Assembly: GCA_009829735.1 (NCBI GenBank)
Contig: CM020618.1
Span: 35,502,894-35,566,893, forward strand
Origin: Pyropia yezoensis
Taxonomy: Eukaryota > Rhodophyta > Bangiophyceae > Bangiales > Bangiaceae
Length of the DNA: 64,000 bases
Reading direction: 5' to 3'
Numbering within the stretch: the first letter of the stretch is position 1; each line of letters opens with the position of its first letter. The position numbers were made by a program, and so were the translations under genes. This document shows positions 20,416-63,953 of the stretch, one piece after another. Under the pieces are notes generated by a model. The model worked only from the letters and a program-made list of their open reading frames with translations. It was not told where the DNA came from and did not search any database.

Positions 20416-20860
20416 GGGGGCAACACGTGCCATGCAAGGGGCGGCAGGCCACTAGCCTGATCCGTTCCTCCCCCTGCATTTGGGTCCATATTCCCCAAGT
20501 TTGGGATAGTTAGCTTAGTAGTAAATCCAACTTGGATTTGAGGGTTTTCTGCATTTTATCGTCTTGAATTTTCGTGTGGCCCGGTGGGCAGGTGCTGGGG
20601 TGGGAGATTCTGAGTGGTGAGATTCTGAGGGGACCCTGGGGGGATAAGGGGAGGGACAGCGGGGCTTGGCCCTGCGTCCCCGTCCCGACGAAGAAACTGT
20701 TGGCCCACACACCATCTTCTTGTTTGTCAGTGGGGGGATTGCCCCACAACAGGGATAGAGTGTGTGCGACTTGCACTTCTTCCGGTTCCTCCGACACGGG
20801 AGGCAGCCCTTGTACACCGCCCCTACTTGGGTGCCGCGTGTGCGAGTGGTTTTTGCCACA
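20391..20860 (+). repeat. 5' LTR of element III
   Basis: Begins TGTGGCAGTATTGACC and ends TTTTTGCCACA; the termini are inverted TGTGGCA/TGCCACA. Confidence 0.95.
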
Positions 20861-20862
20861 TT

Positions 20863-20880
20863 TGGTGGAGCAGCAGGGGA
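20863..20880 (+). other. Primer-binding site of element III
   Basis: TGGTGGAGCAGCAGGGGA, two bases after the LTR. It is complementary to a tRNA 3' end reading TCCCCTGCTGCTCCACCA, including the CCA tail. The same 18 bases occur in elements I, II and the TRIM. Confidence 0.9.
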
Positions 20881-20979
20881 CAGAGGTAAACTTTACCTCC
20901 GGGTGCACCCGGGTGTAGGGGGCCCTCTGTCTCAGAGGAACGGTGGACTTGGACCGTGTCTTACGGATCGTTAGCCAAC

Positions 20980-25900: not shown

Positions 25901-26757
25901 CGATCCCACTGGCAGAGATCACGGCCATGTCGGTCGTGTCAGCCTCCCTAGATCACTGGGTTGCCGCGTATGGCATTCCGGATAGTACACTATCGGACAA
26001 TGGACCGCAATTTGCGTCTGTACTGTTTCAGGGAGTGCTGGATATGTTGGGGGTGCAGGCAAACTATGCCACCCCCTACCACCCACAAACTAATGGGCAG
26101 GTGGAGCCCTTCAACAAAACTATTGTTCATCAGCTGCGCCACTATGTGAGTGAGCATGTGAAAACGTGGGACCAATACATTTCTATTCTTACTACTGCCT
26201 ACAATTCGCAGGTTCACTCATCTACCGGGGAAGTACCCCTCGCTTTTGTGACCCCCCGTCGCGTGCGGTCTATTGCCGTGCTGCGGCCGCTCCCAACTAG
26301 GGAGGATGGTGGCAGTACGCCTACTCCTACTGAGAGTAGGGCGGAGTTCGCTGCTAGGCTTGAGAAGCTCATCCCTAAAGTCAGGGCTGAGATGGACAAA
26401 GCACAAAAGCGCTACAAGCGTACCTTTGACAAAAAGGTGTGCAATGCTAAGCATGTCCCCGAGCAGGGTGACTGGGTATTGGTACACTCACACACCCCAA
26501 CTGGGGGTAAGTTGGTATTCCAGACGAAGGGGCCGTACCAGGTCCTTCGTACTGATGGGCGGCGCTTCACCATTGAAAGTGACGATGGGGTCCGCACAGT
26601 AAACGGACAGGACGTGGTCAAAGTTGCACCACCGCCAGCAGGCGACCCAGTTTGGGTGCCGCGTGTGCGAGAGGTTTTTGCCACATTTGGTGGAGCAGCA
26701 GGGGAAGATGCCAGAGCATCCCCCGCCGCTGGACACAGAACACCCAGGTCGACATGA
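22924..26757 (+). CDS. Element III pol polyprotein (PR-RT-RH-IN)
   Basis: 1,277 residues in one open frame. Protease is at about residues 75-90 (VLDTGSGASLI), reverse transcriptase at about 400-580 (FCIDYRKLNES, TLDCNAGYWQIP, VYLDDIIVFSR) and RNase H from about 670 (LDVDASYDQLG). Integrase has an HHCC zinc finger (HNAPTGGHLG ... CTSCAQNR, about 895-945) and DDE core (AMDILGPLP, DNGPQFAS, NGQVEPFNKT). The pol order RT-RH-IN marks Ty3/gypsy. The last about 35 codons are not a chromodomain as in elements I, II and IV: they run through a 54-bp copy of the element's own LTR end and primer-binding site. Confidence 0.92.
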   Translation: MTVGAGRPKLTTAASAKWAKRTNQPCRILRRPKGVRPPRVGLPKNVNPRRVLAVLTGENFQVAGRVQLAPGSACCARIVLDTGSGASLIRKSLLPKEMKIQRWKSKADHLIDIIGGVLPIVGAVTLPTRLGTHEVDETYGVVENISVPLLLGTPYVVTQVPLICGPEYWVKLMNGETIPILGKGKSVAPVTVSQSKPDCSVREGFTATLRLARKVTLPPNSVAHVDVVTDYMGNGLVHPYPRLARRHQVHVALGTMDSKAGVPWRIQVMNLSSSPQYFKSGAKFGYIDQYEGPVVAVTLNAGASSDPKSGKEKHQAKSAASPRLHVNMEGVPPRLRVQVERLLDQYHKLWDGQLGLMRATQHRIELKPGAPPIRQQLYRAGPCSRALVKEQVARMEALDVIEASNAEWASPVVIVPKVDGTPRFCIDYRKLNESTVKDSYPLPRMDDCLDSLGEANVFSTLDCNAGYWQIPIAPEDRHKTTFTCHCDTYQCKRLPFGLCNAPATFPRAMDMILAGVRWQICLVYLDDIIVFSRSPEEHIGHLGQVFELLADAGVSLKANKCHLFTQEVEYLGHVVRPGRLSVNEKNLRAIRKAQYPRTQTQMRSFLGMCNVYRRFTKGFAKVAKPLNELVSSTLPKNLPPPSRVEQESFETLRDLLLKPPILAIPRLGGHYILDVDASYDQLGCVLLQQQPDKEYLPVGYFSKGLNSAEKNYGVTELEGLAVVWAVTSLRHYLEGEKSFIRCDHRALQFIFKTDCTSTRLNRWRVRLAPFNFDIEYRPGRQHALADGLSRVPTEGLDTNPVDEDIPIVGVVTRSGQALNPETPANKKYLPLSLDEVVTAQAEDPFCKSQRDTLDTVSETRFFIGDDGLLMRRGVFQGTEQLVVPASLKDSILEREHNAPTGGHLGSSKLYQTLRTRYYWPSMVVDIYSWVAACTSCAQNRLMERRPTTAMLLFPAKEPFAALAMDILGPLPVTEEGNHYLLAICDRFTKLTRAIPLAEITAMSVVSASLDHWVAAYGIPDSTLSDNGPQFASVLFQGVLDMLGVQANYATPYHPQTNGQVEPFNKTIVHQLRHYVSEHVKTWDQYISILTTAYNSQVHSSTGEVPLAFVTPRRVRSIAVLRPLPTREDGGSTPTPTESRAEFAARLEKLIPKVRAEMDKAQKRYKRTFDKKVCNAKHVPEQGDWVLVHSHTPTGGKLVFQTKGPYQVLRTDGRRFTIESDDGVRTVNGQDVVKVAPPPAGDPVWVPRVREVFATFGGAAGEDARASPAAGHRTPRST

Positions 26758-27532
26758 CCTCGAGGAGCCACTGGGTGGCCAACATGGCCCACACCAGATG
26801 ATCCGGGCTAGCCGTCAACATGACGGAGCCGAAGTGGTCGAGTAACCGTGGCAGCAACGCCGGGAACCCGTAGGGGACCACAACTTGAGGCCACCACTCG
26901 GGCTTCTTCGGGTAGTACTGCTCCTTACTGGCAGCAGACTGCTGAGGAAGCTCAAGTTGAGCCGAGGTCACCAAGTAGGGACCTCGACGGAAGTCCTTCT
27001 CCATCCGCACATCAAAGTGATGAGTGTGCGGATCGGCCTCGTGAAGGTACGGGGGGCGAGTTGCCACCGCGTCCCAAGTGAAGGTCGGCAAGTCGCCGGG
27101 ACCCGGGATAGTTCCCCCGCGGTCCACCATGGCCTTGGCCCGCTGTACGTCTTCGACCTCCTCATCGTCCAGGAAGGCAAACGTGTCCGTCCTGAAGCCG
27201 GCCGGGAACCCGACCCTACGGGGAAACTTCTCCCGTAGGCGGTCCCATACCCGACCCATCGCTGCGCCAAGTCGGCCACAGCGAAGAACAGTCAATCCCT
27301 CCTCATAGAGAGGCCAAGCGGGGTAAAACCACCGCCACAAGGCCTCACGCGGGACAACGTGTCCCGCCTCCGGGGGAGATCCCGCCGTCAACCCAAGGCC
27401 GGGTGACGCGGGAGTCCCATCCCCCGGAGCGATCACAGAGCCCCCACCGGAAGTCCCGGCGGGCGCTGCACCGTAGGAGGTGTCCTCCATACGTTCATCG
27501 AGGGAGTCCGTCTCCACCCCCGGAGTCGCCAT
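26618..27532 (-). CDS. Antisense ORF of element III
   Basis: 304 residues on the strand opposite to gag-pol, starting MATPGVETDSLDERMED. Conserved features shared with the first antisense ORF of element IV are RAKAMVD, RPPYL, YYPK-x(8)-VVVPYGF and LATQWLLEVM (IV: RALKVWD, EPPFL, YYPK...IPVGF, LAANHWLHEV). No database family is recognised. Its 3' end overlaps the last codons of pol and the LTR/primer-site relic. An expressed protein would need a promoter firing from the 3' LTR towards pol. Confidence 0.65.
   Translation of the reverse strand: MATPGVETDSLDERMEDTSYGAAPAGTSGGGSVIAPGDGTPASPGLGLTAGSPPEAGHVVPREALWRWFYPAWPLYEEGLTVLRCGRLGAAMGRVWDRLREKFPRRVGFPAGFRTDTFAFLDDEEVEDVQRAKAMVDRGGTIPGPGDLPTFTWDAVATRPPYLHEADPHTHHFDVRMEKDFRRGPYLVTSAQLELPQQSAASKEQYYPKKPEWWPQVVVPYGFPALLPRLLDHFGSVMLTASPDHLVWAMLATQWLLEVMSTWVFCVQRRGMLWHLPLLLHQMWQKPLAHAAPKLGRLLAVVQL
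26652..26705 (+). repeat. Internal copy of LTR end plus primer-binding site
   Basis: 54 bp matching the junction of the 5' LTR and primer-binding site (from 20,825 to 20,880) with about one mismatch, located at the pol/antisense-ORF boundary. It marks an old recombination or template-switch joint. Confidence 0.9.
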
Positions 27533-27871
27533 GACTCTCCCCAAGTTGGGGAGAAGCGCCCTGGCTACAGCGGCACGAGACCCGCCTCGAGTTGAGGGGG
27601 GCTCGGATCGTGGGTAGATGGGTGGCCTCCCCAGCGTGGGGCGGCCAAGGGGAAGATGACGGGGATGTGTTGGTGATGGTGAAGTGGGAACCGGGGAGAG
27701 CAAGCTGCCGAGTGGGCAAGCTTGAGGAGAGGGGCGGTCAACGTGTCCGCCTCCACATCTGCGTTACGTACTCGAGGGGGGACAGCAAGTCGCGCCCCCC
27801 AACGCCGAGACGTGCGTTTACGCACCCCCTCACAGGGCCGACCGGGTCGGTCGGAGCTGAGGAGAGGGGAG

Positions 27872-28341
27872 TGTGGCATTATTGACCCCCAGGTAGGGGG
27901 GCAACACGTGCCATGCAAGGGGCGGCAGGCCACTAGCCTGATCCGTTCCTCCCCCTGCATTTGGGTCCATATTCCCTAAGTTTGGGATAGTTAGCTTAGT
28001 AGTAAATCCAACTTGGATTTGAGGGTTTTCTGCATTTTATCGTCTTGAATTTTCGTGTGGCCCGGTGGGCAGGTGCTGGGGTGGGAGATTCTGAGTGGCG
28101 AGATTCTGAGGGGACCCTGGGGGGATAAGGGGAGGGACAGCGGGGCTTGGCCCTGCGTCCCCGTCCCGACGAAGAAACTGTTGGCCCACACACCATCTTC
28201 TTGTTTGTCAGTGGGGGGATTGCCCCACAACAGGGATAGAGTGTGTGCGACTTGCACTTCTTCCGGTTCCTCCGACACGGGAGGCAGCCCTTGTACACCG
28301 CCCCAACTTGGGTGCCGCGTGTGCGAGTGGTTTTTGCCACA
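27872..28341 (+). repeat. 3' LTR of element III
   Basis: 470 bp, preceded by a purine tract (GAGGAGAGGGGA, 27,859-27,870) that fits the polypurine tract of a plus-strand element. Confidence 0.95.
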
Positions 28342-36475: not shown

Positions 36476-36493
36476 TCCCCTGCTGCTCCACCA
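36476..36493 (-). other. Primer-binding site of element I
   Basis: On the minus strand TGGTGGAGCAGCAGGGGA, one base inside the 5' LTR; identical to that of element III, which belongs to a different family. Confidence 0.9.
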
Positions 36494-36494
36494 A

Positions 36495-36856
36495 TGTAGC
36501 ACAATAGGTATCCGCTGCACGTCCACTCTCAGGGAACACTCACCACGGGGGATCGGCACCAACGTCACCGGGAGGCCAAGGTTGCTGTCCTTGGAGCGCA
36601 AGCCACTGGACCAAGATGAGAGCCCAAATGGGAGGGGTTTGTTGTTCTACCATAGCCGGCGGTCGATTCGCCGCCGGCCCCCTCGTTATAAACCCTCGGA
36701 GACACTACTAACTACCCTCCACCCCAAGATGCAAGTCCCTCTGGTCATACGTAACTTATAGATACCGTGACCAGTACGGACCCCCAAATTGAAAGTTGAG
36801 GGTTAGAAGTAGCCCCCCTACAGTAGGGTCACAATACGGTCAACCATATTGCTACA
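36495..36856 (-). repeat. LTR B (5' LTR of element I)
   Basis: 362 bp. Its right flank GGCGT compares with GGCGG left of LTR A. Its 3'-side sequence variants (plus-strand right third) match LTR C. Confidence 0.95.
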
Positions 36857-37253
36857 GGCGTCCACGCCCTCTCGCCTCGTCGGAAGACGAAGGCGGCTGC
36901 CCGCCACGCAGGGCTGGGTGTGGGGATGCCCTGCCGTCCGACCATGTAGTGCACCGCCGCGCGCGGGAGGAAGCACACCGCGTCCGCCCGGGCGCGCGCT
37001 TCTGCCCACAAAAGGTGCGCCCGCCACACCGTCAGCACGAGCACTGCTCGGCCTTGTTGTTAACGACCTTTCGCAGCAGCAGGGCGGCTTGGAAGAACGG
37101 GGTGTTGGCGTTGTTGTGCTCGCCCCCCCACGGCTGGCGCCAGGCGTCGACGGCCTCGCACTCGGGGTCCAGGTCGCAGCTGTTGAACCGCGGCAGCTGG
37201 GTGTTGTGCAGGGCGGCAGACCGGTCAATGGTGCACGGCCCCCACGCCGAGGC

Positions 37254-37871
37254 CTAGGTGGCGAGCACGGCCGGACATAACCGCCAGTCGGTCCGGTCCC
37301 TGTCCCGCGACAGCCGGTCGGCGAAGGCGCTGGCGAAAGAGCGAAGCCACGTGGCGGTTACACGGAGGCCCGGCGTGTGGAGCGTGTCGTGTAGGCGTCG
37401 GACGTCCTCCATGAGGCGGGGGGAGCGGGAACACATGGCGTTGAGCACTCCCATCGTCACCCGCGAGTCGGTGCGCACGGCCAAGGTCGCGCCGGGCCAA
37501 AATAGGTGAGAGAAGGACTGCACCGCCCATCGCACCGCCGCCCGCTCCTTCAAGTTGATGTGTGCGTCGCGCATCGCCGAGCGGAAGAATCTGCGCGCCG
37601 GCACTAAGCGCTGAAACGTGGCGCCCCACCCGTAGGGGGAGGCGTCTGTGGCGACCTCGCCCGCAGGCGGGGTCGGCCAGAGGGCGCGGCCCACCGACGA
37701 GCCCCTCGCCAGATCCCTCCACCACGCCGAATCCCGCAATGCCAGGGCGTCCAGTTGGACGTCGCGCCGGCGTGCGGCGCTACGCAGGGCGTCGTACAGC
37801 GCCCGCAAGTGGAGCTGCGCCAGGGGAACCGCGAGGAGGGTGGAGACCGCCAGGCCGCAAAAGAGGCGCAC
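37254..37871 (-). CDS. DIRS RNase H domain, copy 1
   Basis: DIRS-type RNase H with EVATDASPYGWGATFQRL, HINLKERAAVRWAVQSF, RTDSRVTMGVLNAMCSRSPR and WLRSFASAFADRLSRDRD. The order fits the segment after RT in DIRS elements. It removes RNA from the RNA/DNA hybrid during cDNA synthesis. Further DIRS sequence continues to 36,857, where element I interrupts it. Confidence 0.8.
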   Translation of the reverse strand: MRLFCGLAVSTLLAVPLAQLHLRALYDALRSAARRRDVQLDALALRDSAWWRDLARGSSVGRALWPTPPAGEVATDASPYGWGATFQRLVPARRFFRSAMRDAHINLKERAAVRWAVQSFSHLFWPGATLAVRTDSRVTMGVLNAMCSRSPRLMEDVRRLHDTLHTPGLRVTATWLRSFASAFADRLSRDRDRTDWRLCPAVLAT

Positions 37872-38131
37872 GCGGGTGAAGATGACCCAGCGGCGGCGGT
37901 GGGCAGCCCGGCGTCACAGGTCGAGAGCAGCCTAGCGTAGGCGGGTGAGGCAGTCGGGATGCAGGAGGAGGAGTCGGCGGCGTGTGTCCACCACGAAGCC
38001 GAGCAGTGGGAGCTGCTGCGTGCTTTGGGATGCCCCCTTGTCGGGCGCCACTTGCAAACCAAAGGACAAGAAGATCTCGAGCGCCGCGCTACGGCCCTTG
38101 GTGGCGGCCGCCTTTGTCGATGGCGCCGCCC

Positions 38132-38493
38132 TGTAGCACAATAGGAATCCGTCGCACGTCCACTCTCAGGGAACACTCACCACGGGGGATCGGCACCAAC
38201 GTCACCGGGAGGCCAAGGTTGCTGTCCTTGGAGCGCAAACCACGGGACCAAGATGGGAGCCCAAATGGGAGGGGTTTGTTGTTCTGCCTTGGCCGGCGGT
38301 GGATTCGCCGCCGGCCCCCTCGTTATAAACCCTCGGAGACACTACTAACTACCCTCCACCCCAAGATGCAAGTCCCTCTGGTCATACGTAACTTATAGAT
38401 ACCGTGACCAGTACGGACCCCCAAATTGAAAGTTGAGGGTTAGAAGTAGCCCCCCTACAGTAGGGTCACAATACGGTCAACCATATTGCTACA
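38132..38493 (-). repeat. LTR C (solo, recombinant)
   Basis: 362 bp. Its left part carries the variants of LTR D (GGAATCCGTCGCACG, TTCTGCCTTGGCC) and its right part those of LTR B (CAGTACGGACCC, CCTACAGTAGGG). The left flank equals that of D and the right flank equals that of B. The switch lies between about 38,301 and 38,413. No 5-bp duplication of its own. Confidence 0.9.
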
Positions 38494-39768
38494 GGCGTCC
38501 ACGCCCTCTCGCCTCGTCGGAAGACGAAGGCGGCTGCCCGCCACGCAGGGCTGGGTGTGGGGATGCCCTGCCGTCCGACCATGTAGTGCACCGCCGCGCG
38601 CGGGAGGAAGCACACCGCGTCCGCCCGGGCGCGCGCTTCTGCCCACAAAAGGTGCGCCCGCCACACCGTCAGCACGAGCACTGCTCGGCCTTGTTGTTAA
38701 CGACCTTTCGCAGCAGCAGGGCGGCTTGGAAGAACGGGGTGTTGGCGTTGTTGTGCTCGCCCCCCCACGGCTGGCGCCAGGCGTCGACGGCCTCGCACTC
38801 GGGGTCCAGGTCGCAGCTGTTGAACCGCGGCAGCTGGGTGTTGTGCAGGGCGGCAGACCGGTCAATGGTGCACGGCCCCCACGCCGAGGCCTAGGTGGCG
38901 AGCACGGCCGGACATAACCGCCAGTCGGTCCGGTCCCTGTCCCGCGACAGCCGGTCGGCGAAGGCGCTGGCGAAAGAGCGAAGCCACGTGGCGGTTACAC
39001 GGAGGCCCGGCGTGTGGAGCGTGTCGTGTAGGCGTCGGACGTCCTCCATGAGGCGGGGGGAGCGGGAACACATGGCGTTGAGCACTCCCATCGTCACCCG
39101 CGAGTCGGTGCGCACGGCCAAGGTCGCGCCGGGCCAAAATAGGTGAGAGAAGGACTGCACCGCCCATCGCACCGCCGCCCGCTCCTTCAAGTTGATGTGT
39201 GCGTCGCGCATCGCCGAGCGGAAGAATCTGCGCGCCGGCACTAAGCGCTGAAACGTGGCGCCCCACCCGTAGGGGGAGGCGTCTGTGGCGACCTCGCCCG
39301 CAGGCGGGGTCGGCCAGAGGGCGCGGCCCACCGACGAGCCCCTCGCCAGATCCCTCCACCACGCCGAATCCCGCAATGCCAGGGCGTCCAGTTGGACGTC
39401 GCGCCGGCGTGCGGCGCTACGCAGGGCGTCGTACAGCGCCCGCAAGTGGAGCTGCGCCAGGGGAACCGCGAGGAGGGTGGAGACCGCCAGGCCGCAAAAG
39501 AGGCGCACGCGGGTGAAGATGACCCAGCGGCGGCGGTGGGCAGCCCGGCGTCACAGGTCGAGAGCAGCCTAGCGTAGGCGGGTGAGGCAGTCGGGAAGCA
39601 GGAGGAGGAGTCGGCGGCGTGTGTCCACCACGAAGCCGAGCAGTGGGAGCTGCTGCGTGCTTTGGGATGCCCCCTTGTCGGGCGCCACTTGCAAACCAAA
39701 GGACAAGAAGATCTCGAGCGCCGCGCTACGGCCCTTGGTGGCGGCCGCCTTTGTCGATGGCGCCGCCC
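38494..39768 (-). repeat. Tandem unit 2: DIRS RNase H piece, second copy
   Basis: Second copy of 36,857-38,131, including the RNase H coding stretch at 38,891-39,508. It ends at the CGCCC target duplication of element II. Confidence 0.9.
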
Positions 39769-40131
39769 TGTAGCACAATAGGAATCCGTCGCACGTCCAC
39801 TCTCAGGGAACACTCACCAAGGGGGATCGGCACCAACGTCACCGGGAGGCCAAGGTTGCTGTCCTTGGAGCGCAAACCACGGGACCAAGATGGGAGCCCA
39901 AATGGGAGGGGTTTGTTGTTCTGCCTTGGCCGGCGGTGGATTCGCCGCCGGCCCCCTCGTTATAAACCCTCGGAGACACTACTAACTACCCTCCACCCCA
40001 AGATGCAAGTCCCTCTGGTCATACGTAACTTATAGATACCGTGACCAGTCCGGACTATCAAATTGAAAGCCAAGGATTAGAAGTAGCCCCCCTAATATTA
40101 GGGTCACAATAGGGACAACCATATTACTACA
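39769..40131 (-). repeat. LTR D (3' LTR of element II)
   Basis: 363 bp. The adjacent purine-rich tract (minus strand CTAAGGGGGGATA, 40,132-40,144) is the polypurine tract. Confidence 0.95.
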
Positions 40132-43563: not shown

Positions 43564-46500
43564 TTACAGTAGGCGTCGTCGCCTCATGTAAGGCATGAGT
43601 AGTTGGCGGGGTATATTCGCCGCCTGTTCCCAGGTAGGTGAGTCGTATCCGACCCACATAACCTTGACGCACAAGGGTCCTGGTAGGTCTGGGTCGGTGT
43701 GTCCGACCACGCTCTCTTCTTGGTATGGGATTCCATCCGGTCCCACCGGGTCATCTGACCGGTGGGTTGTAAGAGCTTCATGTAGCAACCCAGCCGGTAC
43801 CGGCTGAGGCTGTTCCGGCTTCGGAGCTGGTGTGACATCATTCACACTGATGCGTTGGATCTCCGTATCGGAGTGCAGGATAACAGAGTGGTCATCTCTG
43901 TGGAGAATCTGGTACGGTCCCTTGACCGGTTGCATGAGCTTGTTCCTTCGGAACTTCTGGTGTCTGATGTAGACCCAGTCACCTGTCATCAGGGTAGCGT
44001 TACGCACCCGTAGCCGGGCGTCGAAGTTCTTCTTGTATCCAAGTTGTGTTCTGTCAAGGGCACCCTTGAGCTTCGGTATCATCCATGATAGCTTGGACAA
44101 CCAAGCTAGGTGTATACGTTCGGCCGGTCGGCCTTTCGGTGTATCATACCGAGTGCACCTGCCTGACGGCAGCGTCAGGTTACCGACGCCTAAGGGCATG
44201 ACCCACTCCAGTGGGGCAATGTTTGTGCTCCGATGTGGCCTGGCATTGTATGCCAGGGTGAGTACGGACAGAAGCCTGTCCCAAGTGTTCGTGTGCTCGG
44301 CCACGTAGCACTGTAGCATCTTAACGATGGTGCGGTTGAACCGCTCCACCTGCCCGTTGGTTTGTGGGTGGTAGTCGGATGCCCGACGGGGTTCGATACC
44401 GAACATCCCCAGGACCTTAGTGCAGAATGCTGACGTAAGGTTTGCTCCGTTGTCGGAGAGGAGTTGCTTCATGACTCCGTATGCACTGATCCAGTGGTCA
44501 ACCACTGCGTTCATGATGGTGTATGCCGTATCATTTGGGATGGCTGCCGCTCGTGACAGCTTAGTGAAGCGTTCAGACATGACCAGGATGTACCTGTTCC
44601 CTTCTTCCGTTACCGGAAGTGGCCCGAGTATGTCGATCGCGACCTGCTCGTTGGGCCCATCAGGTGGGGGAACAGTTTCATAGCGGATGCCCGCCTAAGA
44701 AGACTCATACGATTCCGTGCACACGGGTGGCATCCCCGCACGTGGTCGACCACGTCGACGGCCATTGCTGGCCAGTAGAAGAACCTTCGCATTGCTGCGA
44801 ACATACGTGAACCCCCCGGGTGTCCGGCTGTGGGGTTCTCGGATTCTCGTTCCATGACGGCTTGCCGTAAGGACACGGGAACCACGACTTGATGCCGTCC
44901 ATCGGCGCGTGCCCGCCGGTATATGAGTCCGTCTTCATTCTCGGAGAAGATGCCGGCCGTACCGGCCAGGAGGTTAGCGCGATGGCGTCTACAGTCGTCG
45001 TCATTGGCTTGTGCCTCGCGGAAGTCCGCGAGGGTCAATGGGCATGCTCACTGTGCCATGGTATGGTCAACCATACCTTGGGTAGCGTTACCCACCATGC
45101 AGACCGGTACCACCGGGATGTCCTCGTCCACCGGGCGGGTATCCCCGCTCGGGGTGTCGAGTCGAGACAACGCGTCTCCGAGATGGTGGGTTGACCCAGC
45201 CTTGTACACGGTACGGTAGTCGTGCTCGGCCATCTTTAGCCTCCATCGGGTTAGCCTCCCATGGCTATCGGAATCCTTGTCACCAAGGTTGAGGAGCCAT
45301 CGTAGGGGTTCGTGGTCGGACCTCACGATGAACCTGGAGCCCTCCAGGTATGGACGGAGCAGTTGCACTGCCCATATAACTCCGAGGCACTCACGCTCGG
45401 TGGCACTATAGTTACGCTCAGCCGGGTTGAGTGTCCGGCTGAAGTACCCTACCGGACTTAGGTCCGGGATAACGTTATCGGTACCGATCAACGTCTCTCC
45501 CTGCAACATGGTGCACCCCACTTGTGTATCACATGCATCGACATCGATGACGAAGGTCCCCCGTCTATGCGGCAACGCAAGCACGGGTGTGGCTAGCAGA
45601 GCTTGCTTGAGCAGCTCGAATGCCTCTCCCTCGCTGGGCGAGGGAGGTTGGAGTACCTTTGGCAAGGCGCTGCTCGTCAGAACCGTTAACGGTTTGGCTA
45701 TACGAGCGAAGTCCTTGACAAACCGTCGGTATGCGTTGCACATCCCCGGAAAGCTTTTCAGCTGTGTCTGGGTGGTCGGGTATCGCGCAATTCGGAGTGC
45801 CCGGGTATAAGCTTCGAGCACTCCCAGTTTACCTGGTGTGATCTGGTGACCCAGATACTCGACGGTCTGCTGGAAGAAGGCGCACTTCTTGAGGCGCAGG
45901 GTTACCCCGGCGTTCCGCAAGAGGGTGAGTACCTCGTCGACATGTTGCACATGGTCATCCATGTTACGCGAGAAGAAGATGACATCGTCCAGGTACACCA
46001 GGCAGTTACGCCACTTCACACCCGACAGTATAATGTCGATGGCCCGCTGGAATGTGGCGGGGGCGTTGGACAATCCGAAGGGCATCCTTAGGAACTCGTA
46101 CACTCCACTGTGACAGACGAATGCCGTCTTGGGGATATCCTCGTCCGCCACCGGGATCTGCCAGTATCCGGCATTGCAGTCGATAGTGGTAAACACTGTG
46201 GCCTCCCCCAGGGAGTCGATGCATTCATCCATCCTTGGTAAAGGGTAGGAGTCCTTCTTGGTAACCAAGTTGAGGCGTCGATAATCGATGCAGAACCGAG
46301 GAGTTTGATCCTTCTTCGGTACGATGACGACTGGGGCACCCCACTCCGACATCGAAGGTCGTATCACCTTCGCTTCGCTCATCCTCTTCACTTCTCCATC
46401 AACGATCTCTCGTTGCATAGGTCCCGCTCGGTGCGGTTGTGACCGGGCGGGTCGTGCGCCTGGTACCCGGTCTATACGATGTTGGGTTGCCCCAATGGTA

Positions 46501-47732
46501 CCCAAGGCTCCGCCTGTCCACATGACGTCATGCTTTCTTAACCTCCGTCGTACCCCTTCGGCTACCGAAGGGGGAAGGTGGTCGAGGTCAGCCTCGGCCA
46601 GTGCCTTCAAAGCTTCTTGGTCCTTCGGCGGAATATCCGCCGGTAATGATGGTCGACTAGGCTTCCCGTCATCGGGTTGCTGTCGCTCGGTGGTCTCGGC
46701 GACCGCCAGTACTTCAAGTGGTTCCACTTGACCTTCCTTGTCAGGGGTAGGGATATCTCCTTCGTAGAGCTCGGCAATCCCGAGGATAGTTCCCTTCGGG
46801 AGGGTGACTGCCTTACGGCGATAGTTCGCCATCACCAGAAGGGACGACCCTCCTGCTGGGAGGTCTACGATACCGTTGGCCATGGTCAACCCATGGCGCT
46901 TGTACGTCCGCAAGTTGGACCGGACTCTGCAGATGCCTGCGAGGTCGCAGTTAACGGGGAGGACTGTCTCCGACAACGGCTCAAAGCGAGTTCGCTCGGC
47001 TAACCGAAGTGCCTTCGGCTCGACGCTTGCGTACACCTCAGCCACGATAACGTGGCTCCCTTGTAGCGTCAGGTCCCTGACGATAGCCGTGTGTCCTCGC
47101 TTCGTCCCGTCAGCTTCTTGAAGCTCGACGGTCCTGCGGCCTGGCCGGATTGCATCAACGTGAACGTTGATGAAGGTGCACCCCAGTATGCAGGGCACCG
47201 ATAGGGTCTCACACACCAGGAAGTCGACTTCCGTGGTGAGTTCCCCGATGGTAACCCGCAGCGACATCGCTGCGGTCGCACGAATGAGACGACCATTCGC
47301 ATCCTTGATGGTGGGTCTCCGAGTCACTCTGACTCGCGGAAGCCACTTGTCCGGGAGGGTATCCTTCCGTATCAGGTTAGGTCCAGCCCCTGTATCCAGT
47401 ACAGGGTAGTACGATCGTGTCGACTGGGGGTCAACCCCCAGTGTGGCTGATACCTTCAAGTTCTCCAAGGTAAACAGCACGTGGCCTACACCGATATCCG
47501 GTGTAGCTCGGGCATCCTGAACAGGGCCCTTGTCTGGTTCCATGTGACGGGGCTTCCCGTCCTCTCCTCCCAACCTTGGAGGTTGGTCATCAATCCCCTG
47601 ACGCCGTGTCGTCGGGGCCGGAAGGTGTACCCGGGGGTTGATGCGGCGTCGGCTCAACCGCGCTCTCCGTGGGGCTTTCCCCGCGGTACTCCGGGGTGGC
47701 TTGCTTGGGTTACCCCAGCGCCCCCCGGTCAT
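43564..47732 (-). CDS. Element II pol region (PR-RT-RH-IN-chromodomain)
   Basis: Protease VLDTGAGPNLI (about 47.4 kb), RT FCIDYRRLNLVT and VYLDDVIFFSR (about 46.3-45.9 kb), RNase H VIDVDACDTQVG (about 45.55 kb), integrase with zinc finger (AGHPGGSRMF ... CHPCARNR), DDE core (DNGANLTSAF, NGQVERFNRT) and chromodomain VKVMWVGYDSPTWEQAANI (about 43.6-43.7 kb). Most of it is one 894-residue frame; about one break in the integrase half. Confidence 0.9.
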
Positions 47733-47740
47733 CCTTCCTC

Positions 47741-49930
47741 TTACTCGTTTCCCGCTCTTGGTAGGGTGCTGTCCGCCGGGACATCCGGCTGAGGAGGTGC
47801 CTCCTCGGCGGCCAGTACTCCACCTGGAGCTGGCTGCCTACCCGGTGCGGGTCCGGGGGCTCTGGCAGGATACCCCCCGGTGGATGCCTTGCGTTGCGCC
47901 GCTGCCCGCCGAGACTCCTCGGGGATGAGAGGGCAGGACGACACCCAGTGCTGTGGATCCCCACACAACATACATCGGGACGTGCCGGTCCCTCCTTGAG
48001 TTCGCATCGGGGTAGCCCCGTAGCTGCGGTTGCCTCCCTCGGGCGCCCAAGTGCCTGCTCCCTGGTAGGCCTTGGGTCCTTGGGTCAACCGGAACATGGA
48101 CTCCCCCAACCGGTTGGGTCGGCCCGCAATCTGCGGAGGTGCCTCCGTGCGCACCGCCCATGTTGGCAAGGGTTGGTGAGGGTTACCCGTCACCGGGGAG
48201 TACCCCGTAGTCCGTACATACGGGACGCGCCGTCCCGCTCCTTCGTTGACCTGGAACTGGGTTCCAGCCGGGGCGATGTACGCTACCGCACCATGCTCAT
48301 CAATCACCGGCGTCGCCGGTAGCAACAGGTGGCCCTGTTGGTCGACTAGAGGTTCATCCTCACCAATAGGGGGATGTTCGGTTGCCACCAGTACTGGTGC
48401 GGCCTTACGTTCCACCTTCTCTTGCCTCGGTACCGGGGTAAGACTGGGCTTGCCCCCCTCACCCTTGGGCTTCGGGGCCAAGGCACATTCCGGGTGTAGC
48501 ACCCGGTAGGCATCCCCTAGGGACTTGCGCATATGCATCAGTCGACTGAAGTTCGTCCGAGCCGTATTGGCTCCCCGTGCGGATATCCGCACGTAGTTGG
48601 GTACTCCTGCGAACAGGATGGCCCGTAGCTCCCCTTCTCCGAGGAGCTTTCCCAGCTCGTAGTCGAGCTCTTGGATCCGGCGTCCAAACATCTACTCAAC
48701 CTCCCAGGACTGGGCGGTGGCAGTGCGAAGGGCCCAATAGTGGTCTTCGCACTTGTCCTCACTGAGGTAGCTGCTAATCAGCTCCTTCAGTATACCACAG
48801 TAATCCATGGGGGTGGCTGCGACCCTCATTCCCGGTATCGGGGATGCCTGGCGGAGGATGCCTCGGACCCGTTCATCGACAAAGAACGGAAGGATCTCCA
48901 GTGCCAGCCCCTCGTTGACGAGTGCCTTGTCCGCGGCTGCCTTGAAGCTATTTAAGAAGCCAATGACTGCCAACGGGCGTCCGCTCGGTCCTCCGAACAT
49001 AGGGACTCCCTTCATGAGGGTCTGCATAGAGCGGATCGCTCGGTGCGACGTATTACGCATCGATTCCGATACGGTGGTCGAGCGGTCCTCCAAACGATAA
49101 CGTTCCGGAGTAAGAACCGACCGGAAGACCTCGTTGACGATCTCCGTGTCAGCTTCCTGGTCATCCAGTCGCTTAGCCAGTTGATGAGCAAACTCATCGG
49201 ACTCCATCCGCTTCAGTAGGCTCGCAGTTAACTGCGCGGTCATAGCTTCCACCACTGAAGAGGGTACTTCAGGCGTCGGCACCTCGGGAACCCGAGTTGC
49301 CTGGCCTCCTTCGTCGTGGGGATACTGTGAGAGGGTACCCCCTCCCCCAATAACCGACTCTCCACCGGCGTAAGTATCCGCCGGGTCGTGTCCGCGGAGT
49401 CCGCTTCGGGCGCTCCGAGCGTATCGCTCCGTGTGACTCCGTTCCAACTCTGCCGACGAGTCGGATCCATACCCCATTGTGTCCGGGGGTTGTCCAGGAG
49501 TAGCAACACCGGGGTTGACCCTGGTGGACTCCGAAAGTAGTCCGGCCGGTTCGAACCGTACCGGTGTGGGAGGAACACGACGGGGTCCCGTCGTGTGGCG
49601 TGTTGACATCAACACTGCCATTGCGTCCTCCGTCCGCTCTTGACGAGCGTCGAGTCCGGAAAACCGGGCCTCGATGCGGGCCAATGATGCCATCAGGGAA
49701 TCCCCTGGTGAAGGAGGCGGCGGAGTGAGGTCGGTCGATGACAGTTGAGGCGGGCCCCCGCCTCCTGCCGTCCGAGCCGTGCCAAACGTCGATCCGGCAC
49801 CGGAAAGCATTGGCGTCTCATTGTTGTCGATCGGGTTCCCGATCCCGGTTCCCGTAGTCACCTCCGGAGTCGGCGTCGACGCCGATCCGTCACCTTGAAC
49901 GTTCCCCGTCTCTTGGGTAGCCATAGTCAC
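47741..49930 (-). CDS. Element II gag region
   Basis: Two consecutive ORFs (49,930-48,692 and 48,691-47,741), the same arrangement as in element I. The first holds a Pro-rich leader and capsid-like helices; the second opens MFGRRIQELDYELGKLLGEG and has a CCHC zinc knuckle (CMLCGDPQHWVSSC). Binds and packages element RNA. Confidence 0.8.
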
Positions 49931-50130: not shown

Positions 50131-50148
50131 TCCCCTGCTGCTCCACCA
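50131..50148 (-). other. Primer-binding site of element II
   Basis: The same 18 bases as in elements I, III and the TRIM, one base from LTR E. Confidence 0.9.
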
Positions 50149-57851: not shown

Positions 57852-57856
57852 GGTAA

Positions 57857-58059
57857 TGTAGCATAATACATAATCACCGATCGGCTTACCTAAAAAGGTA
57901 GGTACTCGTAATGAGATGGGGCCAAAACCCCAAATCTGGCTCGAGATGTAAAGGGATTTCACCCGGTTGCCTAGTGGTTTGAGCGCGCCATTCCGCTTAC
58001 TTCTCAAGGGCCCGGGTTCGATTCGGACTCTCCGACATCTACTTTTTCGTTATTCCACA
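57857..58059 (+). repeat. 5' LTR of the TRIM
   Basis: 203 bp. A-box-like TTGCCTAGTGG at 57,967-57,977 and B-box-like GGTTCGATTC at 58,015-58,024, 37 nt apart, reading in the direction of the element. Confidence 0.9.
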
Positions 58060-58084
58060 ATGGTGGAGCAGCAGGGGATCTCCC

Positions 58085-58152
58085 ACGTGCGAACAGGGCC
58101 GAAATACACGTGGCATCATGCAACGTGCGAACAGGGCCGAAATACACGTGGC
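58085..58152 (+). repeat. 30-bp repeat pair inside the TRIM
   Basis: Two identical 30-bp copies (58,085-58,114 and 58,123-58,152) with ends ACGTG...CACGTGGC, separated by 8 bp; a candidate packaging or hairpin signal. Confidence 0.9.
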
Positions 58153-58274
58153 GGGAACCGCCTGTAAGGAATGACGAGGAAATAGGTGTCGTTGCTGGAA
58201 TTGGGGAATTCCAGATGGAGAGGGCCGGGGACTTAGGCCGAATCGGGGACGATTCGGACTTAAGGAGGGAGTTA

Positions 58275-58477
58275 TGTAGCATAATACATAATCACCGATC
58301 GGTTCACCTAAAAAGGTAGGTACTCGTAATGAGGTGGGGCCAAAACCCCAAATCTGGCTCGAGATGCTAAGGGATTTCACCCGGTTGCCTAGTGGTTTGA
58401 GCGCGCCATTCCGCTTACTTCTCAAGGGCCCGGGTTCGATTCTGACTCTCCGATATCTACTTTTTCGTTATTCCACA
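58275..58477 (+). repeat. 3' LTR of the TRIM
   Basis: 203 bp; A-box-like at 58,385-58,395 and B-box-like at 58,433-58,442, both unchanged relative to the 5' LTR although seven other positions differ. Confidence 0.9.
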
Positions 58478-58482
58478 GGTAA

Positions 58483-61400
58483 CCGGTTTGAGGGTTCCCA
58501 GGTATCATCTGCCGGGTTAGTACCGAACCAGCGTACTCGCAGGTACAAGCGCCCGTCTCTCCAGGCATGGTCGACAAACTTGACGTAGACATATTCCCGG
58601 CCTTCTTCTTGGGATAGCCAGGGTACTGCGGCCCGCTTGCGCCGGGTCAAGTCCCGTTTGCTTGGCGGTGGAGCTCGGGTGACATGGTCGCTGCTCACCC
58701 GGTACGGGGAGCCATCCACGTCTAGAAGGAAGGTCCAGCCATCCGTATTCAGGATCTCATAAGGTCCATCCGTCTTAGAGTCCAGCTTCCCCCAGGTCTT
58801 GCTATGGTTGTCCACAAAAACCCAGTCGCCACCACCCAGTTCCTTGATCTTTTCCCGGACTCCCTTGTCGTAGTCCCGCTTGTATCGCTCCTGGGTCTTC
58901 GAGATTGACTCCTTCACTCTGGGGAGCAGGAGCTTCAGTTGTTCCAGGAACTCATCCTTGGCCTTGGGACCGGACTTCAATGCAGGCTGGAGACCGTCTG
59001 GTATTTTTTCCAGGGAGAAGTTGGTCAGCCGCCTTGGGGTGACAAAGTCGAGTGGAGCGACCCCCGTTGTCCGGTGAGCTCGGGAGTTGTAGGCTAGAGT
59101 GAGGACAGCCAGGAGCTCATCCCAGTCTTCTTGGTGCTCCTCCACGTAGTGCCGTAGCATGTCCACTAGGGTCCGGTTGAATCAATCCACCTGGCCGTTC
59201 GTTTGAGGGTGGTACGTCGTGGTGTACAAGTTCTTGATGCCCATCAGGTCACAGACTATTTGGAAGAACAGGAATGCAAACTGGGGGCCATTGTCTGTTA
59301 AGACGGAGTCTGGAGGGCCGTAGGCAGCTATCCAGTACTCGCAGAAGGCTGACGTGGCATCCGGGGCCGTGATGGTCCTCAGCGGGATCGCTCGAGTGAA
59401 CTTGGAGAACCGGTTACAAATGATGAGCAAGTATATGTTGCCACTGGATGTTTCAGGTAGGGGCCCCAGGATGTCCATGCTTAAGCTTGCAAAGGGCTCC
59501 GCCGCCGGGAATAGGCGTAGCTTAGAAGTCTTCTTCCTCTGGGACAACCGGTTCCTTGCACAAGAAACACAAGCCTCCAGGTGCTTATGGACGTCACTGG
59601 CCATGGCTTCCCAGTAGTAATGTCGTCGCATTGAAGCATACATCCGATTGATGCCAGGATGTCCGGCCTGGGGAGACGAGTGTTCCATGCGTAGGATGTC
59701 AGCTCGCAGACTTCGGGGTACGTAGACTTGAGTTGCCCCATCAAAGGGTGACACCCGTACCAGGAGTCCATCTGTAGACTCGGAGAAGCGACTGTTCCGG
59801 TTCAGGTCCATTTGGTGGCGAAGCTCCAAGCATTGAGGATCCGTCAGTTGTGCCTCCAGCATCCGGTGAATGGTCACCGGTTGATGAGCTTCAGGTGTCT
59901 CATACAGGGGAGCATGCCAGCCACGTCCAACATTCGGGAGGATGAAGCAAGGTATTTCCTCCGGAATAGGACCGGTGTCGGCTGCAGGAGTCTCCAGCCG
60001 GGACATGGTGTCGGCGCAGTGGTGCTCCCTCCCTGCTCTGGTGCACACCATGTACTTGAACTCTGAAAGGCGTAGGCGCCACCGGGCGACCCTTCCTTGG
60101 CTGCTGTCCATACATAGCAGCCACCTTAGGCTGGCGTGGTCCGTCCGGATGAGGAACTCTTGTCCTTCAAGATATGGACGTAGCAGGAAGCAAGCCCACA
60201 CGACCGCCAAGCACTCGCGCTCCGTCGTGGAATAATTCTTCTCGGCTGGAGTCAGGACGCGACTGTAGTAGCCTATCGGGAGGAAGTGCCCATCAGGTTG
60301 CTGTTGGAGTAGTGAGCACCCCACCTGGACGCCACAGGCATCAGTCTCCAGAACAAACTGGCCCTCCCGCTTGGGTAACGCCAGTACTGGAGTGGTGGTC
60401 AGGCGCTTCTTGAGCTCTTCGAAGGCCGCGGTCTGCTTCTCGTCGAACACCGGGAGTTGTGCGGGAAGCTTCTTGCTGATAAGCTTGGTCAGTGGCCGGG
60501 CAATCAAAGCATAGTCCCGTACGAACCGGCGATAGACGTTGCACATACCCAGGAAGCTCTTGAGTTTCGTCTGGGTTTTAGGTTGCCGTGCATGCCGGAG
60601 GGCCTTGATGTTCTTCTCATTGACTCGGAGCTCCCCCGGACTCAGAACGTGCCCCAGGTACTCCACCTCAGTTTCAAACAGGTGGCACTTCTCGGCCTTC
60701 AGGGTAACTCCAGCCTTGGACAGGAGGGCCAGGACCTCTCGAAGGTGCTCCAGGTGTTCCGCTGGGGTCTTGGAGAAAACGATAATGTCGTCCAGGTAGA
60801 CCAAACATGTTCTCCACCTTAGTCCCGACAGGATGATGTCGATGGCTCTTTGGAAGGTGGCCGGAGCATTGGTGAGACCAAAAGGAAGATGCTTGCACCG
60901 GAATAGTCCCAGGCGGCACGTGAAGGTGGTCTTGTCCTTATCCTCTTCAGCCAGAGGGATCTGCCAGTAACCGGCATTACAATCCAGCGTCGAGAAGAGG
61001 GTGGCATCACCAAGAAAGTCGATGCAATCATCCATTCGCGGTATCGGGTATACATCCTTGACGGTCATCTCGTTCAGGCGCCTGTAGTCAACGCAGAAAC
61101 GGAAGTGACCGCCAGGTTTCGGGACGACTACCACCGGGAAAGCCCACTCGCCATCAGATGGCTCGATAACATGCATCTTGAGCATCTTGTTAACCTGCTT
61201 CTCAATCTCATCCCGGCGGTGGGGTCTAGCCCGGTATGGTTGCAGGTGTACTGGCTTAGCTTCCGGCTTGAGTTGAATCCGGTGTAGAGTAGCGTCCATC
61301 TTGCCCAGCTCTCCCGACCACAGGTGCCGATATTCCTGGAGAAGCTTCTCCAGTGCCTCCTTCAAGTCGGGAGGGACATTTTCTTGTTTGACCTTCGGCA

Positions 61401-62265
61401 TCCCGGGTGGTGCTTGTTCGGGCTTCGGAGTAGCGCTGCCAGCCAGCTCTTGTTTCGGAGGTACGTCTAAGGCCGTCAAGTTGGATGCCAGCTCTTGTTG
61501 CAGGTTCAAGAGGTCTTCCTTGCTCATAGCACGGGCGGACCCCCGGTAAGGCTCTGCTGTACCAACTCGGGTGCCCTTGGCGAGGGTTATTGGCTTTCGG
61601 CTCACGTTGACGATCAGCACCGAGAACGGGGTGTGCCTTTCTACCTTCTTGTGATGTCCGTGGGCCAAGTATAACCGGTGTTTCGCCAGAAATTCCTTAC
61701 GTCCGTAGATCAGGCATTGACCTGCAATCCGGGTCGTTACTTGAACCTTGGTCTCCGAGCGAGGAGGTAGGAGCACCGGTTTGAAGAGATTCAAGGTAGA
61801 GGGTGGGATGCCTTCCCTCTTGTTCTTGGCTACACGAACCTTGGCGTCCAGATGCTCCAATACCGGTGACACATACCCATGGTTGAACTGGACCTTCCCT
61901 TCTCCGGGTAGGATGCTCTTGACATGCTGCTTCTGGAAGTCCCAGCCTAGGATAAGGGGGACTGATAGGGTCTTGACTACTAGAAAAGGAAAAAGCATTG
62001 GTTCATTGTTGACATAGATGGCGACGGGAAGGCGGCCCAGCGGTCGTAGGGTTTGACCTGATGCGTCGACAATGTGGGTTTTGGTAGGCGCTCTCCAGGC
62101 ATGTCGACGCCAGCCCGGAGGTAACAGGTTCTCAGTGATGACGCTTGGTCCGGCTCCCCTGTCAACCACCGGCGTAACAGCTTGGGGAAGGCTATCCCCC
62201 ACACGCATACGGGCGTTAATCTTGAGGTTCTCCTTACGCAGGACGAGCAAGGTCCCCTTGAACAA
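58483..62265 (-). CDS. Element IV pol region (PR-RT-RH-IN-chromodomain start)
   Basis: Protease-like segment near 62.15 kb, then VLILGWDF-type aspartyl-protease tail. RT has FCVDYRRLNEMTVKD and VYLDDIIVFSKT (about 61.1-60.8 kb), RNase H VLETDACGVQVG (about 60.35 kb). Integrase zinc finger is AGHPGINRMY ... CVSCARNR (about 59.6 kb), DDE core SMDILGPLPE, TDNGPQFAF and QTNGQVD (about 59.47-59.18 kb). The chromodomain KFVDHAWRDGRLYLRVRWFG starts at about 58.59 kb and is cut by the TRIM. About one other break in the integrase region. Confidence 0.9.
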
Positions 62266-62282
62266 ACAGGGTGTCCAGGCGG

Positions 62283-63953
62283 CTACCGGTTGGGCAGGTA
62301 ACTGCCGTCCTTTCTCCCGGCACGCAAGGGGAGAACGGGTAGAAGTACCCTGCCGTTGGAGATTCGGGAAGACACTTGGGGAGAGCGCCTGCCGTACTCG
62401 TTTCCCGGGTCCGAGGAGTCCTTAGAGGTCTCGGTCTCCAGGTCGAAGTCCGTAGGAGCTTCCCTTGCCAGAGCTTCCGTGATGCTCTGTAAGGTTGCCA
62501 CTCGGATTGCGTGTACCTGTGCCTTGTCCATCTTGGAGGGTGCTCGCCGGTCAGCCCAGTTTACCGCCTTTGCAAACACCAGTCCTTGACGCTTGAGTTT
62601 CTCCTGGAGATCCTTGGGAATGGTCGGGCACTGGTAGGACATGTGGTCCTCCTTCTGGCACAGCCAGCAAGACCGGAACCGCTGGTTCTTGACCTGCTTG
62701 GGGGCGACCAGGGAAGGTTGCTCCTTAGAAACGAAGCCGCCCCACTTGTCCCCTGACCCCATGGGTGAGGCCTCGCCAACTGCGAGTACCGGTACAGGGC
62801 TATCACCTCCCTTATACTTGTCGGGTCAGGGACGAACTCGCGACAACGGCTTGGGAGTTGATACCATGAGAGCTTGGAGGGCCTTGGCTTGCCGGTACTT
62901 GCCCTGGGTGTAGGCCATCAACTGCTGGAAGGTATGTTCTTGATGTTCCTGGTTGTAGTTCTCCGCATCCACTTGAAGATATTCAGGAAGCCCTTCTGAG
63001 AAGATCATCTTGAGCCTGTCCTCAGGGTAAACGTTGCCACAAGCATCGCTCATCTCCCGGACACGACGGGCGAATGCCTCTGGAGTCTCTTGTCTCTCCA
63101 TGGTTGCCCGGCTCAGCCTGCCGACTGCTTTACGCAGGGAGTCCGCGTCAGCGTAGTTGGACAGGAGCCAGTTGACCGCCTCAGGATAACTCGCGACGGT
63201 ACGTCCGACAATGTGTCCGGCAGAGTCTGGTAGAACCTGTGCAAACCGCTGTTCCGCTTCTCCGGTCATGAAGTTAACCAGGAGGTAGAGAGCCTTGCCC
63301 TCGGACACATCGTTGTCATTGCATGCCTTGACAAACCGGCGCAGGAAGACAAAGATAAGCGCCGGTCTCTTCCCGGAAAACTTAGGATGTCCCCCAAAGC
63401 TCGGCTGCATTCGCCGGTTCAGGGATGCCATCTTCTTGGCCATCTTCCGGGTGTAACCTTGGTCTTGGTTCTCCAGCCGGTAGTTACCCCAATACGTGAC
63501 CTTGTTCAGGGTGGCATCTTCCACTTGGTGGGCAGGGAAGTCAAACTCGACTAGCCAGCGCCGGGTGGGACCGGGAGATGCATCCCAGTCATATCCCTCC
63601 TCAGAGCTGGAGGAACTGGTCTCGCTGGTGCTAGAGCGACGGCGACGACGCCGACGCCTCCGGCTGCTTCGGTTACCGGTCTTGGAGCTCCCCGCCCCAT
63701 AGGATGCAAGGGGAGGAAAAGCTTGGCCGGTCCCAGGAGTCGAGGTCTCAGGGAGACCCGTAGAACCAGTCACAGCGGTGCCTCTGGCACTGCCAGTGCC
63801 CACAGGAAGAGGTGTATACACCCAGCTGCCATGTGTGGGTCCAGGAGTAAACACACCAGGGGCTATCCCTGGAGGTTGAGGAGTAGAACCGACAGGAGGG
63901 AGACGTCTGCTGCGAGCGGACTCAAACGCCGTTGACCCCGGGGTGGCTCCCAC
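62283..63953 (-). CDS. Element IV gag region
   Basis: Starts MGATPGSTAFESARSRRLPP with a Pro/Ser/Thr-rich leader and a poly-Arg patch. A capsid domain follows (FVFLRRFVKACNDNDVSEGK, matched by FEFLRRFKEACDDNAISEG in element III) and, in the second part, a CCHC zinc knuckle (CWLCQKEDHMSYQC, about 62,630-62,675). About one break between the two parts. Confidence 0.85.

Follow-up and report, generated by a model that had tools for sequence, protein, structure and literature searches.

tRNA-SINEs (SINE2) carry an A box and a B box and encode no protein, and SINEs have no LTRs, no primer binding site (PBS) and no polypurine tract (PPT). TRIMs with tRNA-derived sequence in their LTRs were named Helenus by Kojima, who described them in fungi, animals and Selaginella, and who coined the term TRIMp3 for Helenus together with Cassandra and Ajax, of which Cassandra is the only validated case (Kojima 2024, PMC10886601). 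Cassandra is a land-plant TRIM in which the LTR contains a Pol III promoter, derived from 5S rRNA, and a terminator. A super-hairpin joining its two LTRs has been reported as a prediction, and RT-PCR of its tandem arrays led to the presumption that the LTRs in between are read through (PMC7215508). Ajax, from a nemertean, also has a small-RNA promoter in the LTR (again 5S-derived), 5-bp duplications and a tRNA-Leu primer (Kojima 2024, PMC10886601). As regards red algae, TRIMs were found in Chondrus crispus and not in Cyanidioschyzon merolae by Gao (2016, PMC4717578), in whose account no TRIM besides Cassandra is reported to contain 5S; red-algal TRIMs as such are therefore already known.

The element described here belongs to the red alga Pyropia yezoensis and lies in a 64-kb window (the whole stretch of DNA analysed, to which coordinates without a contig prefix refer). 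It is a complete TRIM of 621 bp, at 57857–58477, with two direct LTRs of 203 bp each. It is inserted at the end of a Ty3-type polyprotein frame on the minus strand, and its features are as follows.

57852–57856, no strand: 5′ target site duplication GGTAA, as read from the sequence
57857–58059, plus: 5′ LTR, 203 bp, TGTAGC...TTCCACA, from the LTR comparison
57967–57977, plus: A-box-like TTGCCTAGTGG of the 5′ LTR, exact in 38 of the 52 LTRs aligned
58015–58024, plus: B box GGTTCGATTC of the 5′ LTR, exact in 35 of the 52 LTRs aligned
58043–58047, plus: TTTTT of the 5′ LTR, a Pol III-type terminator by sequence, 18 nt 3′ of the B box
58060–58274, plus: internal region, 215 bp, in which no protein domain was found
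58061–58080, plus: primer binding site TGGTGGAGCAGCAGGGGATC, 18 of 20 nt against the 3′ end of tRNA-Ala(TGC) with CCA
58085–58152, plus: 30-bp unit present twice at 38-bp spacing in the internal region, from the repeat comparison
58262–58271, plus: polypurine tract AAGGAGGGAG, followed by TTA (a 3-nt gap) and then the second LTR
58275–58477, plus: 3′ LTR, 203 bp, from the LTR comparison
58385–58395, plus: A box TTGCCTAGTGG of the second LTR, identical to that of the 5′ LTR
58433–58442, plus: B box GGTTCGATTC of the second LTR, identical to that of the 5′ LTR
58461–58465, plus: TTTTT of the second LTR, as read from the sequence
58478–58482, no strand: 3′ target site duplication GGTAA, as read from the sequence
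58468–62421, minus: Ty3-type polyprotein frame in two pieces (58468–59181 and 59182–62421), from Pfam on the second piece

The original prediction, made from the letters of this stretch, had noted TG...CA direct repeats, a primer site, a purine tract and a 5-bp duplication, and all of these are present where it placed them. Its description of an A box 37 nt before a B box, unchanged in two LTRs about 3% apart, is likewise accurate: the two LTRs show 7 differences over their 203 sites and no indels. It made no mention of the TTTTT run that follows the B box by 18 nt in each LTR. The longest frame fully within the element, on the minus strand, has 128 aa, and a Pfam search with four of its frames (66–128 aa) gave nothing over the cut-off (best E 0.028); at 621 bp, the element falls within the definition of a TRIM (less than 1000 bp, no coding capacity). 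Two other members of the family, at C2:18153004 and C2:26802630, have internal regions of 177 bp, 38 bp shorter than the 215 bp of the window copy, a length difference that is possibly the mark of a subfamily.

The resemblance to Helenus, as that group is described by Kojima (2024, PMC10886601), extends to the short TRIM format, LTRs with tRNA-like A and B boxes, the PBS and PPT, and solo LTRs with duplications, which are of 4–5 bp in Helenus and of 5 bp here; moreover, the tRNA-like part of Helenus is mostly no working tRNA, and that of the red-algal TRIM likewise has no predicted tRNA fold. The original prediction that a TRIM of this kind would be undescribed is therefore not tenable. The differences concern, firstly, the host (Pyropia yezoensis rather than fungi, animals or Selaginella) and, secondly, the details of the promoter and the primer. 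Box A reads TTGCC where most Helenus have TRGCY, although the YGG of the Helenus consensus (TRGCY...YGG) and the GGTTC of box B found in most of them are both present. A terminator is mentioned in Kojima's paper for Cassandra only, whereas the red-algal LTR has its TTTTT. tRNA-Ala, the best fit here, is not among the Helenus primers that its results text names; and, whereas animal Helenus combine a Gypsy relationship with 4 bp and fungal ones a Copia relationship with 5 bp, the red-algal TRIM has a Ty3/Gypsy-type primer site and 5 bp, a combination of primer and duplication size that is unnamed in that text (PMC10886601). Cassandra and Ajax differ from it in that their promoters come from 5S rRNA while its own putative promoter is tRNA-like, and Ajax differs also in its primer; the boxes plus TTTTT would correspond to Cassandra's promoter plus terminator, and the 5-bp duplications are shared with Ajax. 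The TRIMs of Chondrus crispus, compared here by their description, are also red-algal, but the term "tRNA-like" has no occurrence in Gao (2016, PMC4717578).

How far the LTR resembles a tRNA gene was measured with a box-scoring matrix built from 20 host tRNA genes, out of 43 matches listed (63 scored of 1453 candidates). The LTR scores 20.2, as against 21.0–28.6 for the 20 tRNAs from which the matrix was built and 6.4–9.3 for four control stretches at Ty3 LTRs (one of which, 36495–37300, is longer than its LTR). After dinucleotide shuffling of the LTR, 1 of 2000 sequences reached this score. Nevertheless, in a scan of the window with 1276 tiles of 203 bp, it was reached not only by the two tiles of the LTRs themselves but also by two overlapping tiles at 18901–19203, and the score is therefore unlikely for any one LTR without being unique in 64 kb. 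On the B-box side, 14 of 14 nt (CCCGGGTTCGATTC) are identical to the host tRNA-Gly(GCC) and, on the D-arm side, 13 of 14 nt match the host tRNA-Val(CAC); in an alignment against 24 tRNA sequences, 1 of 300 simple shuffles reached the best score. A run of T4 or longer occurs within 25 nt in 15 of the 20 host tRNA genes.

Whole-tRNA models gave a different answer. The covariance score proposed as a check yielded no match of the LTR to the Rfam tRNA model up to E 10 (nor of a longer stretch up to E 1), ARAGORN found no tRNA gene in the LTR, and all Rfam families, searched at E 1 and E 10, gave no match, so no 5S rRNA sequence was found there. A tRNA fold of the LTR RNA was rejected, since the predicted fold has no cloverleaf and a z of −1.1. 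With boxes and local identity but without such matches, what remains would be promoter boxes and tRNA scraps rather than a tRNA. The predicted tRNA-derived LTR promoter thus stands as regards the boxes, the matrix score and the tRNA-Gly and tRNA-Val identity, but not as regards a recognizable tRNA; as judged from the letters, a tRNA-like type-2 promoter in the LTR is supported.

The P. yezoensis genome consists of 48.0% repeats, mostly LTR retrotransposons (PMC7423979). The assembly searched has 107,475,971 bases, with three large contigs of 43.6, 34.3 and 29.4 Mb. The best 40 of 99 candidates were scored in the search with the whole element and the best 40 of 112 in that with the LTR, and the internal region gave 24 matches; because only the best candidates were scored, the copy counts are lower bounds and, because copies were gathered by their likeness to the window element, old ones are under-sampled. 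There are at least 13 complete elements (with LTRs paired by position), all with a common internal region containing the primer site and purine tract, and 12 of them have exact 5-bp flanking duplications; the exception, at C3:23338766, has LTRs identical to each other. The paired LTRs differ at 0 (two elements), 3 (three elements), 6, 7, 16, 19, 21, 25, 30 and 43 of about 200 sites, and this range indicates that the family was mobile both long ago and recently. To these are added at least 16 full solo LTRs, 12 of them with exact 5-bp duplications. The genome-wide collection of copies, another of the proposed checks, thus yielded solo LTRs with 5-bp duplications and, in those read, no A-tails. 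Five further matches to the tRNA-like part that were absent from the results of the LTR search (L115–L119) each proved by eye to be a solo LTR; the duplications of four are exact and that of L117 agrees at 4 of 5 positions, and no A-tail was seen by eye in these five. A 23-mer searched exactly against GTDB contigs and a 20-mer against viral contigs gave no matches.

Some loci have a more complex structure. At C1:19846745–19848451, two copies of the TRIM LTR lie about 1.3 kb apart in opposite orientations. At L056 and L059 (C2:21.01–21.02 Mb), which are 99% alike over 2.6 kb, the TRIM internal region adjoins foreign sequence, a low-copy repeat that follows a TA and sets this region about 2.3 kb apart from a TRIM LTR. 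A chimera of the TRIM with a second type of LTR was considered and rejected, since a nested insertion at TA fits better; the foreign sequence starts after TA in two of three further copies read at the edge (L120 and L122, not L121). On sequence grounds, the pair resembles a nested insertion within a segment that has been duplicated.

A free form of the tRNA-like part was looked for with the 58-nt unit from A box to B box, which at up to 3 mismatches occurs at 61 places in the genome (reversed control, 0), and with the first 38 nt of the LTR, which occur at 92 places. The LTR start lies 92–117 nt upstream of 57 of the 61 units, at exactly 108 nt in 44 cases and, conversely, 57 of the 92 LTR starts carry the unit at up to 3 mismatches. 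Of the units without such a start, that at C2:31319044 is the 5′ LTR of an element among the LTR matches already tabulated, and that at C3:2867148 (L116) is, by eye, a solo LTR with an ATTCC duplication in which U3 is deleted and the tRNA-like unit is whole. No free unit was seen among the 59 of 61 places read (which do not include C3:29126869 and C3:28620407), and the traits of a tRNA-SINE, namely a solitary unit, an A-rich or simple-repeat tail and long variable duplications, were not seen in the copies read.

It had been proposed that the boxes should be the most conserved part of the element, and this was not borne out by the copies that were alignable. The alignment has 52 rows, comprising 47 of 52 LTR matches (five short of both ends were dropped) and L115–L119. 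In exact form, 38 LTRs have the A box, 35 the B box and 46 the TTTTT; 26 have both boxes and 24 have all three. Substitutions per site and copy amount to 0.034 in the boxes plus TTTTT versus 0.041 in the rest of the LTR; when these positions are shifted around the circularized LTR, 61 of 203 shifts give a value at least as low. Variants common to at least three copies number 0.19 per site in the boxes plus TTTTT versus 0.18 elsewhere. On the tree, the ratio of inner to terminal changes is 7:37 versus 50:263 (Fisher p 1.0). The set of copies has little power, because most changes are private, single-copy decay and because paired LTRs are not independent. Inner changes per site are highest at U3 positions 61–105 (0.62) and few at positions 1–60 (0.12). 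A first count in which indels seemed rarer in the tRNA-like part was discarded, as most of its signal came from two bases that only the window copy has; the recount against a 201-bp copy gave 18 events in U3 (1–110), 7 in 111–168 and 3 in 169–203, with no clear difference.

The primer site is best fitted by tRNA-Ala(TGC), with 18 of 20 nt and the 12 terminal nt exact (L104 and L109). The other 18 tRNA genes match it at 6–14 of 20 (one of them, L094, compared 2 nt out of register), and no perfect match exists among the 20 tRNA genes compared; a gene-like candidate for the primer tRNA at C1:39021732 (L113) was rejected as unlike a tRNA by eye. The genome contains 632 places that match a 16-nt core of the primer site with GGGGAT at its end (control, 0). 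Many places in the genome read TGGAGCAGCAGGGGATTGGA on the primer-site strand (rows TCCAATCCCC...), and these are perhaps a large LTR family with the primer of the TRIM.

Within the window, the first 18 nt of the TRIM primer site recur identically at 20863 (plus), 26688 (plus), 36476–36493 (minus) and 50131–50148 (minus); these four sites read GGGGAC or GGGGAA and so fall outside the 632. Three of the four directly follow the LTR end of an element that has a Ty3-type coding frame, and two of these frames (22777–26757 and 45048–47837) were submitted to Pfam. The element that offers a candidate type of helper is as follows.

20391–28341, plus: Ty3-type element with LTRs at 20391–20860 and 27872–28341, its primer site identical over 18 nt, candidate helper type

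It has ATGGC on both sides (a 5-bp duplication) and reverse transcriptase, RNase H and integrase domains according to Pfam; from the order of these domains, we take the frame 22777–26757 to be Ty3. Beyond the primer site, the TRIM shares only weak stretches of 18–23 nt with the rest of the 64-kb window. Given the 18-nt identity with the Ty3 elements of the window and the fit to tRNA-Ala, a Ty3 element is likely, on sequence grounds, to be the helper of the TRIM.

Other repeats in the window deserve mention. At 26652–26707, a 36-bp copy (97%) of a Ty3 LTR end precedes the primer site; it sits within the polyprotein frame, in its 3′ part, of the very Ty3 element whose LTR end it copies, and perhaps arose from a template switch. 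An LTR at 36495–36856 begins with TGTAGCA, as does that of the TRIM. The region 36495–40131 is a tandem array with a 1637-bp period, in which LTR-like blocks (TGTAGCA...TGCTACA) alternate with units that contain an identical frame (37254–37913 and 38891–39550) with an RNase H-like match just below the Pfam cut-off. Two minus-strand frames gave no Pfam match: one of 356 aa at 17162–18232, which by eye is similar to a tyrosine recombinase of the DIRS type, and one of 593 aa at 534–2315, which by eye we take to be like a DDE transposase.

How, then, might such an element move? The explanation that we favour, and which in its entirety we consider fairly probable, is that the TRIM is transcribed by Pol III from the tRNA-like unit of its LTR, primed by tRNA-Ala and moved by Ty3 machinery; it starts from the anatomy, the copies, the duplications and the common primer site, which are observed. 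An ancestral LTR probably acquired the tRNA-like part when a SINE or a tRNA inserted into it. This part would recruit TFIIIC and RNA polymerase III, and transcription would start some 15–20 nt before the A box, near 57950. Pol III would stop at 58043–58047, so that a genomic RNA would need read-through at this site and a stop at 58461–58465; the read-through product would be about 510 nt long, and the tRNA-like unit would form its R at either end. tRNA-Ala would then prime reverse transcription in particles supplied by Ty3, and the Ty3 integrase would insert the copy with its 5-bp duplications. From its sequence, the use of the LTR promoter by Pol III is plausible. The TTTTT of the 5′ LTR should, however, stop most Pol III transcripts, which speaks against a Pol III genomic RNA. 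Further points against the favoured explanation are the unexceptional conservation of the boxes, the negative Rfam and ARAGORN results, the TTGCC of box A and the fact that both boxes are exact in no more than 26 of 52 copies. In the predicted folds of the putative genomic RNAs (472–514 nt), the 5′ R pairs with the 3′ R over at least 32 nt in 9 of the 13 complete elements; z lies between −1.5 and −9.9 across all 13 (12 shuffles each) and is −7.1 for the window element (100 shuffles); since R is partly self-complementary, this R–R hairpin may be a by-product. The putative genomic RNA of the window element, 57952–58465, is predicted to form a long hairpin joining both copies of R, like that reported for Cassandra (PMC7215508).

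An ordinary Pol II TRIM, in which U3 drives the genomic RNA and the tRNA-like part is a passenger, the fossil of a caught SINE or tRNA fragment, is a possible though not a probable alternative. It would sit well with boxes whose conservation does not exceed that of the remaining LTR, with the lack of a tRNA covariance match and with a 5′ terminator at odds with a Pol III genomic RNA; it does not account for the joint occurrence of A box, 37-nt spacing, B box and TTTTT in a tRNA-like order, for the retention of TTTTT in 46 of 52 copies or for the solo LTR that lost U3 and kept the whole unit (L116). More doubtful is a reading in which an independently born red-algal Helenus lineage depends on Ty3 machinery and a tRNA-Ala primer, with the unit plus TTTTT constituting the whole of R, termination giving a short LTR RNA, read-through giving the genomic RNA, and the R copies closing a long Cassandra-like hairpin.

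That the Pol III unit gives only a short RNA of about 96 nt (to the first TTTTT) from both LTRs, Pol II making the genomic RNA, seems unlikely: the position of TTTTT 18 nt past the B box, its presence in 46 of 52 copies and the similar T runs of 15 of 20 host tRNA genes agree with it, but the promoter would then be useless for mobility, and the fold predicted for the short RNA is not unusual (z −1.1). We think it very unlikely that the boxes are a chance match within a normal LTR, as the equally high score at 18901–19203 could suggest, in view of the 1 in 2000 shuffles and of the additional D-arm tRNA identity outside the boxes. Finally, a plain tRNA-SINE inserted twice can hardly be the answer. 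Solo 203-bp units are indeed common in the family, but they have exact 5-bp duplications (12 of 16), TG...CA ends and, in those read, no A-tails, and the 13 complete elements have in common a single internal region that includes the primer site and the purine tract; on the duplications and this common region, we regard the SINE interpretation as ruled out, and the original assignment to the TRIMs is upheld by the 13 elements, their 12 exact duplications and the lack of a free unit in 59 of 61 places read.

In the literature searched, Kojima (2024) alone has TRIMp3 or Helenus as its subject, and red algae, Porphyra and Pyropia have no occurrence in its main text, where the sole mention of "alga" refers to green-algal TRIMs; likewise, nothing was found in this main text on how a terminator is to be reconciled with a full-length RNA in Helenus (PMC10886601). 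Besides Gao (2016), no red-algal TRIM appeared in the titles or abstract openings of the papers listed, and the literature searched yielded no red-algal TRIM that bears tRNA sequence. A tRNA-bearing TRIM is thus known as a kind, and its occurrence in a red alga seems to be new within that literature; the element looks like a new branch of Helenus-type elements. If Pol III does use its promoter, the uptake of small-RNA promoters by TRIMs would extend beyond fungi, animals and land plants to a red alga, and this would support a repeated, convergent origin of such promoters in TRIMs. Young copies, two of them with identical LTRs, in a small genome would make P. yezoensis a practical test bed for the conflict between a terminator in the 5′ LTR and a full-length Pol III RNA.
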